Positions 19,440-23,876 of a DNA stretch of 64,000 bases are shown here, one piece after another. How positions within the stretch are numbered: position 1 is the stretch's first letter; every line of letters starts with the position of its first letter. A program made the translations under genes and the position numbers. The notes under the pieces were generated by a model, which searched no databases, had not been told where the DNA came from, and saw only the letters and a program-made list of their open reading frames with translations. Source of the DNA: Microlunatus elymi (lineage in GTDB: Bacteria; Actinomycetota; Actinomycetes; Propionibacteriales; Propionibacteriaceae); NCBI RefSeq assembly GCF_007362775.1, contig NZ_CP041692.1, forward strand, positions 4,030,001 through 4,094,000, written 5' to 3'.

Positions 19440-21433
19440 CAGGTGAGCGGACGGTCCATCTGGGCGGCTCCCCAGCGCTTGTTCTTCTGATCCGGCGCGA
19501 TGCCGTAGCGCGGCAACGCGAAATCCATGATGTCGGTGTAGACCGGCGCCGCGGTGCCGGTACCGGAGTCACCGTGCTTGGGGTTGTCCAGCACCACGTA
19601 GGTGAGGATCTTCGGGTCGTTCAACGGGGCGATGCCGACGAACGAGGTGACGTAGCCGCGGTAGCAGCCGCAGGATGCGTTGTAGCGCTGGGCGGTGCCG
19701 GTCTTGCCGCCGGTACGGTAATGATCGAGCATCAGGAACTGCTGACTGATCTCGTTCCGGGTGACCACCGCCTCCATCATGTCCCGGACCTCGGCCGAGG
19801 TCTTGGCCGAGACCACCCGGCGCGGTGACGTCCGGTTGATCGCCACCGAGCTGCCGTCGGCGTTGGTCGCGGACTTGATCACCGTCGGCGCGTGGTAGAC
19901 ACCGCCGTTGACGATGGCCGAGATCGCCGCCGCTTCCTGGATCGCCGTCACCGACAGGCCCTGACCGAAGGCGATCTGGTCGCGGGTGTAGTCCTTCATG
20001 TCCGCACCGGGCAGCACTCCGGACGCCTCACCAGGCAGCTCGATCCCGGTCTGCCGGCCGAGGCCGAAGCTGCTCAGGTAGTCGTGCAGCGTCTTCTTGT
20101 CCATCTGCCGGGTCAGCATCAGGGTGCCGATGTTGGACGAGTGCGCGATCACTCCGCGCATGGTGTAGTCGACGGTTCCGTGCGGTTCGGCGTCCTTGAT
20201 CCGGCCGCCGCCGGAGGCGATCGTCGGCGGCACCTGCACCTTGGTGTCCGGATCGGCTGTGCCGCTGTCGATCAGCGCCGCCGAGGTGAGCACCTTCTCC
20301 ACACTGCCCGGTTCGTACGTCTGGCTGACCAGCCGGTTGCCCAGGTTGTCGGGATCGGTCTTGCCGGGCTCATTGGAGTTGTAGCCCGGCGACTGCGCCA
20401 TCGCGAGCACCTGTCCGCTGGTCACGTCCATGGTGATTGCCATCCCGGACTGCGATCCGGTCTTGGCGACTGCGGCATCGAGTCGCCGCTGGGCCACCCA
20501 CTGCAGCTCGGAGTCGATCGTCAGCTGGTAGTTCACCCCGTTCTTGGCCGGAGTGATCTTGCTCTCCCCCAACGGGATCTTGCTGCCGTTCGGGGCGCTC
20601 TCGTAGCTCTCCTTGCCCTCGGTGCCGGCCAGCGACGAGTTCTCCGAATACTCGAGTCCGGCCTGGCCCTTGTTCTCGCCGTTGACGAAGCCGACCACGT
20701 TGGATGCGACGGCGCCGGCCGGATAGGTCCGGATCGGATCGTTCTCGCGGTAGATACCGGGCAGGCCGGCCGCATCCAACTCGGTGGCGATGTCGGTGTA
20801 GATGTCGGCCGGCACCTTCTTCTTCACGTACACGAATCGGGTGTCGTGGCGCATCAGGGTGGCGATGGTCTGCTGCTTGTCGATCTTGGTGTGTTTGCCG
20901 ATGATGTCGGCGATCTTGGTCGCCTCGGCCAGGCCGCAGAGCTTGCCGTAGACCTGATCCGGCTCACCGCAGTCCTGACTGGTCAGGGTCGGATCCGCGG
21001 TGATGTCGAAGGCCGGCGTTGTCCCGGCCAGCACCTCGCCGTTGCGATCGGTGATCTCTCCGCGGGCCGGCAGCAGCGGTTTGCTGGTGGTCAGGCTGGC
21101 AGTCGCGATGGCCCCGTACGCCGCCGAGTCGAAACCCTGCAGTTGCAGCAGTCGACCGGCGCACAGCGAGATCGCGATCGCCATCGCGATGCCGATGATC
21201 TGCACCCGGCGCCCGGCCGAACCGAGCGGGATCCGCAGCGTACGACGCCGCTTGCGTTGCCGCGAGGACTTGGGCTGAGGTGCGGTCTTGGACCGCTGTG
21301 CGGGCTTGCGCCGCGCGATCGGGCCCTGCTTGCTCGGTTTCCGAGTCTTGGTCCGCGGGTTCCGCGCCTGCTGACTGCTCGCCCGCTGGTTCGGGGTCGC
21401 CCGCTTCGATGGATGCTGTCGTCGCTCGCCCAC
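19436..21433 (-). CDS. ftsI: Septal transpeptidase FtsI (class B penicillin-binding protein)
   Basis: Class B PBP that cross-links septal peptidoglycan with FtsW. The catalytic triad motifs are SVEK (Ser377, Lys380), SSN (432-434) and KTG (577-579). A dimerisation domain (about 120-300) precedes them, and a single membrane helix lies at about 77-98. The cytoplasmic N-terminus is unusual: about 75 residues very rich in Lys, Arg, Gln and Pro. Length 665 is in the range for actinobacterial PBP2/PbpB. It ends in a GTGA overlap with murE and begins 6 bp after the ftsL-like gene. Confidence 0.96.
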   Translation of the reverse strand: MGERRQHPSKRATPNQRASSQQARNPRTKTRKPSKQGPIARRKPAQRSKTAPQPKSSRQRKRRRTLRIPLGSAGRRVQIIGIAMAIAISLCAGRLLQLQGFDSAAYGAIATASLTTSKPLLPARGEITDRNGEVLAGTTPAFDITADPTLTSQDCGEPDQVYGKLCGLAEATKIADIIGKHTKIDKQQTIATLMRHDTRFVYVKKKVPADIYTDIATELDAAGLPGIYRENDPIRTYPAGAVASNVVGFVNGENKGQAGLEYSENSSLAGTEGKESYESAPNGSKIPLGESKITPAKNGVNYQLTIDSELQWVAQRRLDAAVAKTGSQSGMAITMDVTSGQVLAMAQSPGYNSNEPGKTDPDNLGNRLVSQTYEPGSVEKVLTSAALIDSGTADPDTKVQVPPTIASGGGRIKDAEPHGTVDYTMRGVIAHSSNIGTLMLTRQMDKKTLHDYLSSFGLGRQTGIELPGEASGVLPGADMKDYTRDQIAFGQGLSVTAIQEAAAISAIVNGGVYHAPTVIKSATNADGSSVAINRTSPRRVVSAKTSAEVRDMMEAVVTRNEISQQFLMLDHYRTGGKTGTAQRYNASCGCYRGYVTSFVGIAPLNDPKILTYVVLDNPKHGDSGTGTAAPVYTDIMDFALPRYGIAPDQKNKRWGAAQMDRPLTW

Positions 21434-21439
21434 TGCAGA

Positions 21440-22126
21440 TCAGCCCCGCCCGTTCGATTCCTGCTGCTTCGATTCCTGCTGCTTCTGGCCCGATTCCTGA
21501 CCGGTCTGACCGGATGCGGTCTGCTGGTTCTGCTCGGCCTGCTTCTGTTCGGCCTGCTTCTTCTGGGCCGCTTGCTTGTCGGCTTCCCGGCGGGCCTGTT
21601 CGGCTTGCTTCTTCGCCTCGGCGGCCTTCTTCTTCGCCTCTTTCGCCTCACGCTCGGCCGCGATCTGTTCGGGCGACTTCACCAGGCCGGGCACCTCGTT
21701 GCCGCGGACGACCGTCGGCTTGCCGATCACCTTGCCGTTCGGCAGTTTCAGAAACGCCGGCTCCGGATTCGGGCGCATGCCCAAGCCGAATGCGCGGGCC
21801 GCCAGCTTGTCGGCCGACCGCAGGTCGTCCACCTGCTGCGCCAACGCCGCCTGCTGGTAGGTCAGTCGATTCGCCTGCTGATGCAGCGCCTGGGCCTCGA
21901 ACGCCTGCCCCTGCAAGGTGGTGTTCAGGGTCAGCAGGCCGGCCATGCCGACCCCGAAGATCCCGATCAGCACCAGCACGAACGGCACCCGGCCGAGTCG
22001 CCGACGGCCGGCGCCGCCCTCGATCACCGAAGGGCGCACCCGACCGGTACCGGATGCATCGCTGCCGGGGACGTCCGGACTGGAGTCCGCGGAATCTCCG
22101 GACGTGTCGGCCCACAGGGCACTCAT
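21440..22126 (-). CDS. FtsL-like divisome protein with long charged C-terminal helix
   Basis: Position between rsmH and ftsI, a single membrane helix (about residues 47-68) and a following coiled coil (about 72-115; LHQQANRLTYQQAALAQQ) identify this as the FtsL counterpart. Such proteins join FtsQ and activate FtsWI. ATG at 22126 has a strong GAGGAGG site 7 nt upstream. Unlike ordinary FtsL of about 100-200 residues, this 228-residue protein ends in a 75-residue Lys/Glu/Ala/Gln tract (KEAKKKAAEAKKQAEQARR and onward) that should lie outside the membrane. Sequence similarity within FtsL is low, so the call rests mainly on context and topology. Confidence 0.82.
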   Translation of the reverse strand: MSALWADTSGDSADSSPDVPGSDASGTGRVRPSVIEGGAGRRRLGRVPFVLVLIGIFGVGMAGLLTLNTTLQGQAFEAQALHQQANRLTYQQAALAQQVDDLRSADKLAARAFGLGMRPNPEPAFLKLPNGKVIGKPTVVRGNEVPGLVKSPEQIAAEREAKEAKKKAAEAKKQAEQARREADKQAAQKKQAEQKQAEQNQQTASGQTGQESGQKQQESKQQESNGRG

Positions 22127-22215
22127 CGCTTCGCCTCCTCGGTCGATCGGCTGATCTTCGGCTTGTTCTGGCCAGCCTTGTTCTGGCCCGCCTTGCCCTT
22201 GCTCGTGCGATTCAT
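22123..22215 (-). CDS. 30-residue basic microprotein coupled to rsmH and ftsL
   Basis: A 30-codon ORF fills the gap between rsmH and the ftsL-like gene. Its ATG overlaps the rsmH stop as ATGA and its TGA overlaps the ftsL start as ATGA, so ribosomes could pass through all three. The peptide starts [10 protein letters not shown], contains a duplicated KAGQN block, and carries eight Lys and three Arg. The ftsL ribosome binding site lies within its last codons. I know of no family for it. It could be a functional basic peptide, or mainly a translated bridge that keeps ftsL coupled to rsmH. Confidence 0.6.
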
Positions 22216-23222
22216 CCGGCCCGCCCGCGGGGCGTGCTGCGGTGAGCCGGGGCGATGCGTTCGGCCGCACGGAGTCGTGCAGACCGGGCGCGCGGGTTGG
22301 CTGCCGCCTCGCGGTCGTCCGGCCGGTCGGCGCCGCGGGTGAGCAGTCTCAACTCCGGTCCGAGCTCCGGCGGCACCACCGGCAGGTCCCGCGGCGCCCG
22401 GTCCGAGGACGCCACCCGCAGCACCTGCTTGACCTGCCGGTCCTCCAGCGAGTGATAGGCCAGCACCGCGATCCGGCCGCCGACGGCCAACACGTCGACC
22501 GCGCTCGGCAGTACGCCCTTGAGCGCTTCGAGTTCGCGATTGACCTCGATCCGGAGCGCCTGAAAGGTTCGTTTGGCCGGATGTCCACCGGTCCGTTGCG
22601 CGGCCATCGGCACGGCGCCGGCGATGATCTGCACCAGCCGTGCCGAGTTGGTGATCGGCGCGGATTCGCGCTCGCGGCAGATCGCCGTTGCGATCCGGCG
22701 GGCATTGCGTTCCTCGCCGTACTCGAACAGGATCCGGGTCAGGTCGGCTGCCGAGTACGTGTTCACCACCTGCTCGGCGGTCAGCGGCTCGCTGCGATCC
22801 ATCCGCATGTCCAGCGGCGCGTCCACGCTGTAGGCGAAACCGCGTTCGGTGCGGTCGATCTGCAACGAGGACAGGCCCAGGTCGAGCAGCACCGCCTGGA
22901 CGTCGTTGATCCCGCGATCGGCCAGCACGTCGGAAAGTTCGTCGTAGACCGCGTGCACCAACTCGATCCGGTCCGCGTACGGGGCCAGCCGCCGACGAGC
23001 GGTGTCGAGGGCATCGGTGTCGCGATCGAGCCCGATCAGCCGGGCCTGCGGGCAGTTCTCCAGCAGCGCGGCCGCGTGGCCGCCGAGTCCCAGGGTGCAA
23101 TCGACCAGGATCGGCCGATCGTCCGCGCTCGGGCGGTTGGTGAGAGCAGGACCGAGCAGGGCGACGATCTCGTCCAGCATGACCGGGACGTGGACGGCAC
23201 CCTGATCCGGCGAGTCAGCCAT
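22212..23222 (-). CDS. rsmH: 16S rRNA (cytosine-1402-N4) methyltransferase
   Basis: RsmH (MraW), an AdoMet methyltransferase acting on C1402 of 16S rRNA. The N-terminus [13 protein letters not shown] and the AdoMet-binding motif [14 protein letters not shown] (about residues 50-63) are characteristic, with [12 protein letters not shown] and [13 protein letters not shown] further on. ATG at 23222 follows AGGTACGCC; an in-frame start 15 codons earlier is less likely because the family N-terminus starts about here. Length 336. It leads the division run downstream of mraZ, with a long hairpin RNA in the spacer. Confidence 0.96.
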
Positions 23223-23293
23223 CGAGGCGTACCTCGTCGCCGTCCAGCGCTGCCATCTCGACCCCAACCTCGCGCGTCCGTCGGTACTCGTCC

Positions 23294-23415
23294 GGGGGCT
23301 GCTCGTGTCTTCAGGTTTCAGCCCTGGATCTGCGGGAAGTCCTACCTGGCGCCGGGGAAGTTGCGCCAGGGAGTCAGATCCCAGGACTGAAGCCTGAGGG
23401 CACGAGCAGTGCCCC
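23294..23415 (-). ncRNA. Long hairpin RNA in the mraZ-rsmH spacer (mraW motif candidate)
   Basis: About 120 nt folds back on itself. Outer arms CTGCTCGTG (23299-23307) and CACGAGCAG (23401-23409) pair exactly. The next arms, TCTTCAGGTTTCAG and CTGAAGCCTGAGGG, differ from perfect pairing mainly at positions that would be G-U pairs in RNA. Then CCCTGGATCTG pairs with CAGATCCCAGG with one flaw, and the tip is CCTGGCGC/GCGCCAGG. A structured RNA named the mraW motif is known upstream of this gene in actinobacteria; I cannot align to its model here. Confidence 0.6.
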
Positions 23416-23447
23416 TACTGCGGTCCGGACGATGCGAGTCGGTGCGA

Positions 23448-23876
23448 TCACATGCCCGGGAAGACCTCTTCGTTCATGTCGGCGAATGCCGGTTCCTGCT
23501 GGCTGGAGTAGTCCTCCCAGGCCCCGACATCCCAGACCTCGACGCGGTTGATCGCACCGACCACCACGACGTTGACCTCCAGCCCCGCGTAGCTGCGGAG
23601 CTGCTGCGGAATGGTGATCCGCCCCTGCTTGTCCGGCTTCTCATCGGACGCACCGGCGGCGAGCATCCGCTGGAAGTCGCGTACCTGCTTGACACTGGTC
23701 GGTGCCGCGGAGATCGACTTGGTCATCTCCACGAAGGTGGCCATCGGATAGATGGCCAGACACCGGTCCTGCGCCCTGGTGATGACGAGCCCTTCCGCCA
23801 ACTCTTCGCGGAACTTGGCGGGAAGGATCAGCCGGCCCTTGTCGTCGAGCTTCGGGGTGTGCGTACCGAGGAACAC
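23448..23876 (-). CDS. mraZ: Transcriptional regulator MraZ
   Basis: MraZ is the regulator that opens the dcw cluster and controls its own promoter. Two SpoVT/AbrB-like repeats are visible, each with the DxxxR core: KLDDKGRLILPAKFR (about residues 9-23) and KPDKQGRITIPQQLR (about 81-95). The length of 142 is normal. GTG at 23876 follows a GGGAGG site by about 8 nt. Upstream lies an array of TGG boxes at about 10-bp spacing, as expected for its operator. Confidence 0.96.
   Translation of the reverse strand: MFLGTHTPKLDDKGRLILPAKFREELAEGLVITRAQDRCLAIYPMATFVEMTKSISAAPTSVKQVRDFQRMLAAGASDEKPDKQGRITIPQQLRSYAGLEVNVVVVGAINRVEVWDVGAWEDYSSQQEPAFADMNEEVFPGM

Follow-up and report, generated by a model that had tools for sequence, protein, structure and literature searches.

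Why does an open reading frame of 30 codons lie between rsmH and ftsL, sharing four nucleotides with each of them? The window, that is, the whole stretch of 64,000 nucleotides of Microlunatus elymi DNA that was analysed, carries all three on its minus strand. The upstream gene, rsmH (22212..23222), codes for the 16S rRNA cytosine-1402 N4 methyltransferase (PF01795; TIGR00006 with 296.9 bits against a cut-off of 154.3) and the downstream gene is ftsL (21440..22126; FtsL_Actino with 82.5 bits against a cut-off of 55). The spacer of approximately 85 nt that separates them is occupied by the small ORF (22123..22215, 30 codons and a stop), whose ATG (22215-22213) forms a first ATGA with the rsmH stop (22212..22215) and whose TGA (22125-22123) forms a second one with the ftsL start (22123..22126). 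A preliminary description of the locus had reported this double 4-bp overlap, and the sequence agrees with it. It had also rightly placed the ftsL ribosome binding site inside the small ORF, where the Shine-Dalgarno AGGAGG (22139-22134, a 6-nt match within the codons for EEA) stands 7 nt before the ftsL ATG, and noticed a duplicated KAGQN block, which corresponds to a 15-nt in-frame tandem duplication (22165..22194, with copies at 22194-22180 and 22179-22165). The number of Lys and Arg residues was overestimated, as there are 9 of them among the 30 residues and not 11. At -4 nt, both junctions of the small ORF fall within the distances that were taken as compatible with translational coupling (a stop/start overlap, or approximately -8 to +10 nt). 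The position of the ftsL start is backed by the N-terminus MSALWA, common to a clade of four species including this one, and by similar MSA- starts across most of the genus. The possibility that FtsL extends N-terminally beyond 22126 was considered, the frame being open up to 22270 in this genome, and rejected in view of the clade-wide MSALWA start and of an in-frame stop in one relative (L003).

One possible answer is chance. In high G+C DNA with few stops, the spacer would simply happen to be open, ftsL would start from its own Shine-Dalgarno and the ATGA sites would be leftovers, the first perhaps of a former ftsL start. The 6-nt Shine-Dalgarno match of ftsL speaks for this explanation, and so does the frequency of similar arrangements in the genome. 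Our own gene calls over 864 kb gave 726 genes and 469 co-directional pairs, 230 of them separated by gaps of 12-250 nt; strict bridges, with 4-bp overlaps on both sides, occupy 8 of these 230 gaps, which is not significantly more than the 5.3-5.5 expected from shuffles (P = 0.14-0.16). When the stop was allowed to fall from -8 to +10 nt, the count was 12 of 230 for 11.4 expected. The earlier statement that a double overlap is unlikely by chance thus fails for a single case, and a genome-wide habit of bridging was rejected, since neither count is in significant excess. Therefore, any bridging effect has to be specific to particular junctions, and the geometry studied here is counted as non-random because it is conserved in relatives, not on the basis of one instance. 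A further strict match, located before a putative whiA gene, was dropped, as nothing in the other 18 loci of the genus matches the gene upstream of it.

Within the genus, the junction was compared across 20 genomes, which gave 21 rsmH loci. The two genes overlap directly (ATGA or GTGA) in 14 of these loci, five have bridges of 13-32 codons (L001-L004 and L008) and the last two (L011/L015) have a three-codon bridge that looks as if 8 nt at the start had been duplicated in tandem. In one draft genome (G013), two different rsmH genes (L006 and L031) are found on two contigs, perhaps as the result of a mixed assembly. The first four bridges (L001-L004) belong to the four-species clade that includes the window species (tree support 100/99). 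They are 30, 13, 21 and 17 codons long and each of them has both 4-bp overlaps, but their sequences differ and resemble one another only near the end that bears the Shine-Dalgarno. The sole invariant column of their alignment is the last residue, the codon of which has the A of the ftsL ATG as its third nucleotide. The L011/L015 pair is placed apart from this clade, among directly overlapping species, and L008 has no settled position, which would imply, if the direct overlap is ancestral, that bridges arose at least twice in the genus. In the nearest relatives, sequence and length vary freely but the frame is maintained, as are both overlaps, which suggests that the ORF is most likely a stepping stone that carries ribosomes across the gap, rather than a working peptide. 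As for the preliminary proposal that the ORF tunes FtsL dosage through coupling, what stands is the geometry of coupling, as the frame and both overlaps persist in spite of the changes in length and sequence. The same description had looked to relatives with an interrupted frame or a non-coding spacer for evidence against the ORF. The outcome is mixed: the frame is open in all four species of the clade, yet 14 of the 21 loci of the genus have no spacer and some distant actinomycetes have unbridged gaps.

The comparison also bears on the other proposal of the preliminary description, in which the peptide itself acts on RNA or the membrane. A functional basic microprotein, with the ribosome as a further possible target, would account for the 9 basic residues and for a gene-like codon usage (see below). 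Nevertheless, sequence, charge and length are all unconserved among the four nearest species: the net charge is 0, -1 and +1 in L002-L004, and both the basic character and the KAGQN repeat are missing in the three nearest relatives of the window species. The absence of the spacer from two thirds of the genus loci, the lack of any family match in Pfam and NCBIfam, and homologous pairs from other genera that show no excess of third-position differences make this explanation very improbable. A regulatory leader or attenuator, in which ribosome stalling on the ORF would control ftsL, agrees with a location just upstream of this gene and with the presence of its Shine-Dalgarno inside the ORF. However, no terminator-like or sigma-70-like promoter site was found at 22080-22400 and no Rfam match at 21400-23500, RNA folding at the junction is ordinary (z -0.47) and no residue is conserved except the last one; we regard a leader function as extremely improbable. 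Within the genus, a Shine-Dalgarno match of 5-6 nt is found at the rsmH end in 10 of the 14 directly overlapping species, while the five species with the longer bridges have matches of 0-4 at the rsmH end and of 4-6 at ftsL. A shift of the Shine-Dalgarno from the rsmH tail to the tail of the bridge would fit these figures, but it was rejected as it does not agree with the means over the whole set of junctions (4.23 for bridge starts, 3.87 for ftsL after a bridge and 4.61 for direct overlaps).

The constraint on the peptide was evaluated in homologous bridges. Five rsmH-ftsL pairs, all from other genera and none involving the window ORF, show 15/27/19 differences at codon positions 1/2/3; for the 300 nt at the end of the accompanying rsmH genes, the figures are 6/4/53, as befits strong constraint. 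These five were retained out of 15 pairs found (identity of at least 0.83; two share L158), the others being L150/L161, which is redundant, and nine pairs at 0.72-0.78, most of which resemble chance alignments. At another junction, pbpA-pknB (see below), ten pairs were found and the four disjoint ones that were counted show 11/10/12 differences. Judging from these substitutions, the homologous bridge pairs show no sign of purifying selection on the peptide. Codon usage was also considered. The synonymous codons of the four clade bridges are like those of the genes of this genome (z = 4.13; none of 2,000 shuffles was as high), with a GC content of 0.40/0.46/0.89 at codon positions 1/2/3. The L008 bridge is also gene-like (P 0.001), and so are the remaining 27 strict bridges between rsmH and ftsL (z 4.67, using the codon table of this genome as a proxy). 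The pbpA-pknB bridges have no clear codon bias (P = 0.17 in the clade and P = 0.05 for the remainder of the genus). The combination of gene-like codons and an unconserved peptide is in line with an ORF that would be read while its product is irrelevant; alternatively, the codon bias could possibly come from descent from duplicated coding DNA.

To look beyond the genus, 309 rsmH loci from actinomycetes were reduced to 291 distinct junctions by removing 18 (11 without a transmembrane ORF, 6 duplicates and 1 in which this ORF is too far away); a weak match (L032) and other stretches of the window genome (L281-L330) were left out of the classification. The 291 junctions correspond to 198 direct 4-bp overlaps, 9 TGATG overlaps, 23 short gaps, 2 cases without a start and 59 gapped junctions, defined by a gap of at least 15 nt and an ftsL start picked by Shine-Dalgarno and start codon only. 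The sampling was uneven, as two families were queried with bridged Nocardia and Pseudonocardia records and the genus g38, which we take to be Streptomyces, was searched after gaps had been seen there. Loci L033-L112 include Nocardia, Pseudonocardia, Actinomycetospora and others; the family of G088, searched with a Pseudonocardia query, gave at most 68% identity, which does not establish Pseudonocardia as one of its members. The 59 gapped junctions are split into 32 strict bridges, 7 bridges to a lower-scoring start, 7 ORFs ending near the start and 13 junctions without a single-ORF bridge. Five of the 7 near-start ORFs are from g38 and overlap the ftsL start by 8 or 11 nt, and the other two end 13 nt short of it.

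The 32 strict bridges exceed the shuffles (mean 14.3, maximum 25 in 1,000) under a conservative null that allows for frame-2 spacers hidden among the direct overlaps, in a test that is conditional on the presence of a gap; as sampling favoured bridge-bearing groups, the bridged share of the class is not readable from these counts. When one junction was kept per spacer cluster, 27 of 52 were strict for 13.3 expected (maximum 23), although these clusters are not phylogenetically independent. Shifting the spacers by 1 or 2 nt left only 1 to 6 of the 59 bridged, and the wider stop interval (-8 to +10 nt) gave 35 of 59 (17.3 expected, maximum 28). Where a start codon overlaps the rsmH stop, the frame of ftsL is the bridging one in 34 clusters, the other visible one in 11 (p = 0.0008) and frame 2 in 2. 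Four of the 13 junctions without a single-ORF bridge hold apparent chains of two or three mini-ORFs with NTGA overlaps (L336, L357, L331 and L350, all from g38). Three-step bridges (L336 and L357) are above chance (2 for about 0 in 400 shuffles) and two-step bridges are close to it (2 for 1.5-1.7 in 400 shuffles). Eight gapped junctions have neither a single nor a chained bridge (L059, L076, L203, L205, L278, L280, L353 and L356). Some other junctions have their own peculiarities: L199 and, among the near-start group, L226 hold apparent chains of mini-ORFs, judged by eye; the spacer ORF of L149 is in frame with ftsL in an apparent fusion; and the mini-ORF of L095 (Nocardia nova) ends before it reaches ftsL and, in comparison with L069, seems to have undergone a frameshift.

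Strict bridges in the window genome also include one at pbpA-pknB (G000:C1, about 564171-564223, minus strand). The flanking proteins have Pfam transpeptidase and protein kinase matches, and the names pbpA and pknB, like sufS and sufU below, are putative ones given on top of Pfam matches. From 90 loci of the genus and the order (L361-L450), 8 were removed (6 duplicates and 2 without a pbpA match), and the 82 distinct junctions consist of 5 direct overlaps and 77 gaps of at least 12 nt. Strict bridges cross 47 of the 77 gaps, for a shuffle mean of 12.1 and a maximum of 22. The ORF that starts at the pbpA stop ends between -8 and +10 nt from the pknB start in 64 of 77 junctions, for 25.6 expected under the conservative null (maximum 38 of 2,000) and 18.1 with all frames in the null (maximum 29); 13 of the 77 lie outside this interval and widening it to admit -11 nt raises the count to 67. 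Per spacer cluster, the figures are 36 of 43 for 16.2 expected (maximum 26), and shifted spacers leave 9-13 of the 77 junctions and 7-8 of the 43 clusters. The case for bridging of this type is stronger at pbpA-pknB than at rsmH-ftsL. A third junction, sufS-sufU, was studied in 19 loci. Bridges are present only in four species (L470-L473, 2 strict and 2 near), which are precisely those of the rsmH-ftsL bridge clade; the other 15 loci have 13 direct or short junctions and 2 unbridged gaps of 16 nt. In the window genome, this bridge is located at about G000:C1 3930740-3930765, on the minus strand. A chance ORF agrees poorly with a frame kept across species beyond shuffles at both rsmH-ftsL and pbpA-pknB, also when counted per spacer cluster, and with the gene-like codons of the clade, so that we judge this explanation unlikely for the window ORF.

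We consider it quite probable, in view of these comparisons, that the small ORF is a relay translated by termination-reinitiation, in which the frame is kept and the peptide is dispensable. In the ancestor, the rsmH stop and the ftsL start probably overlapped directly (ATGA or GTGA), as they do in most of the genus, which would have let the ribosomes ending rsmH re-initiate on ftsL. The junction would then have gained a spacer, and coupling would have survived where this spacer remained an open frame between both overlaps. Today, ribosomes would terminate rsmH at its TGA, restart at the ATG that overlaps it, translate the spacer into a short nonsense peptide and, having terminated at the second TGA, initiate again on ftsL, with the help of the Shine-Dalgarno contained in the last codons of the relay. 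We infer the translation of the relay by ribosomes, the dependence of ftsL output on it and the order of the evolutionary events. In a reporter study of six gene pairs from E. coli and Haloferax, a gap of approximately 20 nt nearly abolished reinitiation (PMC10666635), so a bare spacer of 85 nt should uncouple ftsL and an ORF filling it has a reason to exist. Against the relay, ftsL has a strong Shine-Dalgarno of its own, from which it could start independently; the eight unbridged rsmH-ftsL junctions, the 13 pbpA-pknB ones outside the interval and the lack of a clear codon bias at pbpA-pknB also count against it. In other bacteria, division is limited by FtsL, which may be why the link is kept. 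The feature is real as a reading frame, probably unimportant as a peptide and of interest as a relay.

Several known systems share traits with this arrangement. The distance of -4 nt found at both junctions is the commonest one among ATGA-coupled pairs, according to PMC10666635 and a review (PMC12548453); unlike in those pairs, a third and apparently peptide-indifferent cistron would here link two known genes that are 85 nt apart. As described in PMC12548453, mycobacterial MIRUs have the same geometry, with an ORF joined to the downstream gene at -4 nt, but they are dispersed repeats with many copies. This likeness could come from the insertion of a mobile repeat of the MIRU type into the ATGA overlap; nevertheless, the sequence has one full match in the genome (the next by E-value covers 17 nt and the longest weak matches less than 40 nt) and the nearest relatives carry unrelated sequences, which brings the probability of such an insertion close to nil. 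Elsewhere, the bridge ORF of L029 (G050) begins MSERSERII, with a GAGCGAGCGGAGCGAGCG-type repeat at its start, maybe a dispersed element, so that this particular ORF possibly had a MIRU-like origin. Mycobacterial RTGA-coupled small ORFs can remain linked to the next gene although their sequence diverges, as the authors infer from an example (PMC4633059). The relay stop similarly forms an ATGA with the next start (22126-22123), and the linkage but not the peptide is conserved in the four-species clade; in contrast, the RTGA-coupled ORFs that these authors analysed begin leaderless transcripts, while the relay sits between two genes and overlaps the preceding one. The synthetic nfORF boosters presented in PMC13255528 are also nonsense ORFs with an internal ribosome-binding site by the stop and raise the translation of the next gene, but they were engineered and tested in E. 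coli. Finally, bacterial leader genes, for which an enhancing effect on expression through reinitiation has been proposed and which were noted in Actinobacteria, are short ORFs without a stable product near the gene start; the abstract of that work reports a distance peak of 10-11 bp in Actinobacteria and mentions no double-overlap bridge (PMC4833913).

The small ORF is of a known kind, mycobacterial MIRUs and coupled small ORFs being its nearest precedents. To these it adds a bridge that overlaps the genes on both sides and that recurs at defined junctions, alone or chained, in sequences unrelated to one another. Among the titles and abstract openings listed, most subscription papers lying outside them, no such bridges were found at rsmH-ftsL or pbpA-pknB. 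On balance, we lean towards a more general proposal, namely that selection at some actinomycete operon junctions (rsmH-ftsL, pbpA-pknB and perhaps sufS-sufU) maintains an uninterrupted passage of ribosomes, and not a short distance between the genes. Their spacers may reach about 100 codons and drift freely as long as ribosomes can read them, either as one ORF or as two or three chained mini-ORFs. They would make up a class of relay cistrons, maintained in evolution whatever their peptide, which annotation could overlook or take for microproteins. If this is true, translational coupling can outlast the loss of gene overlap, and the FtsL and PknB junctions are places where cells appear to keep it. 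In that case, a conserved position, a conserved frame and even gene-like codons in a short ORF need not mean a functional peptide, and the natural bridges of a single junction, which are unrelated in sequence and range from 3 to 105 codons, offer a clean test of termination-reinitiation.

In the window, the spacer that separates rsmH from the preceding gene contains a long imperfect inverted repeat (23294-23414). Its 34-nt arms are 82% complementary, it folds far better than shuffled sequences (z -6.81) and it is present as a single copy in the genome.
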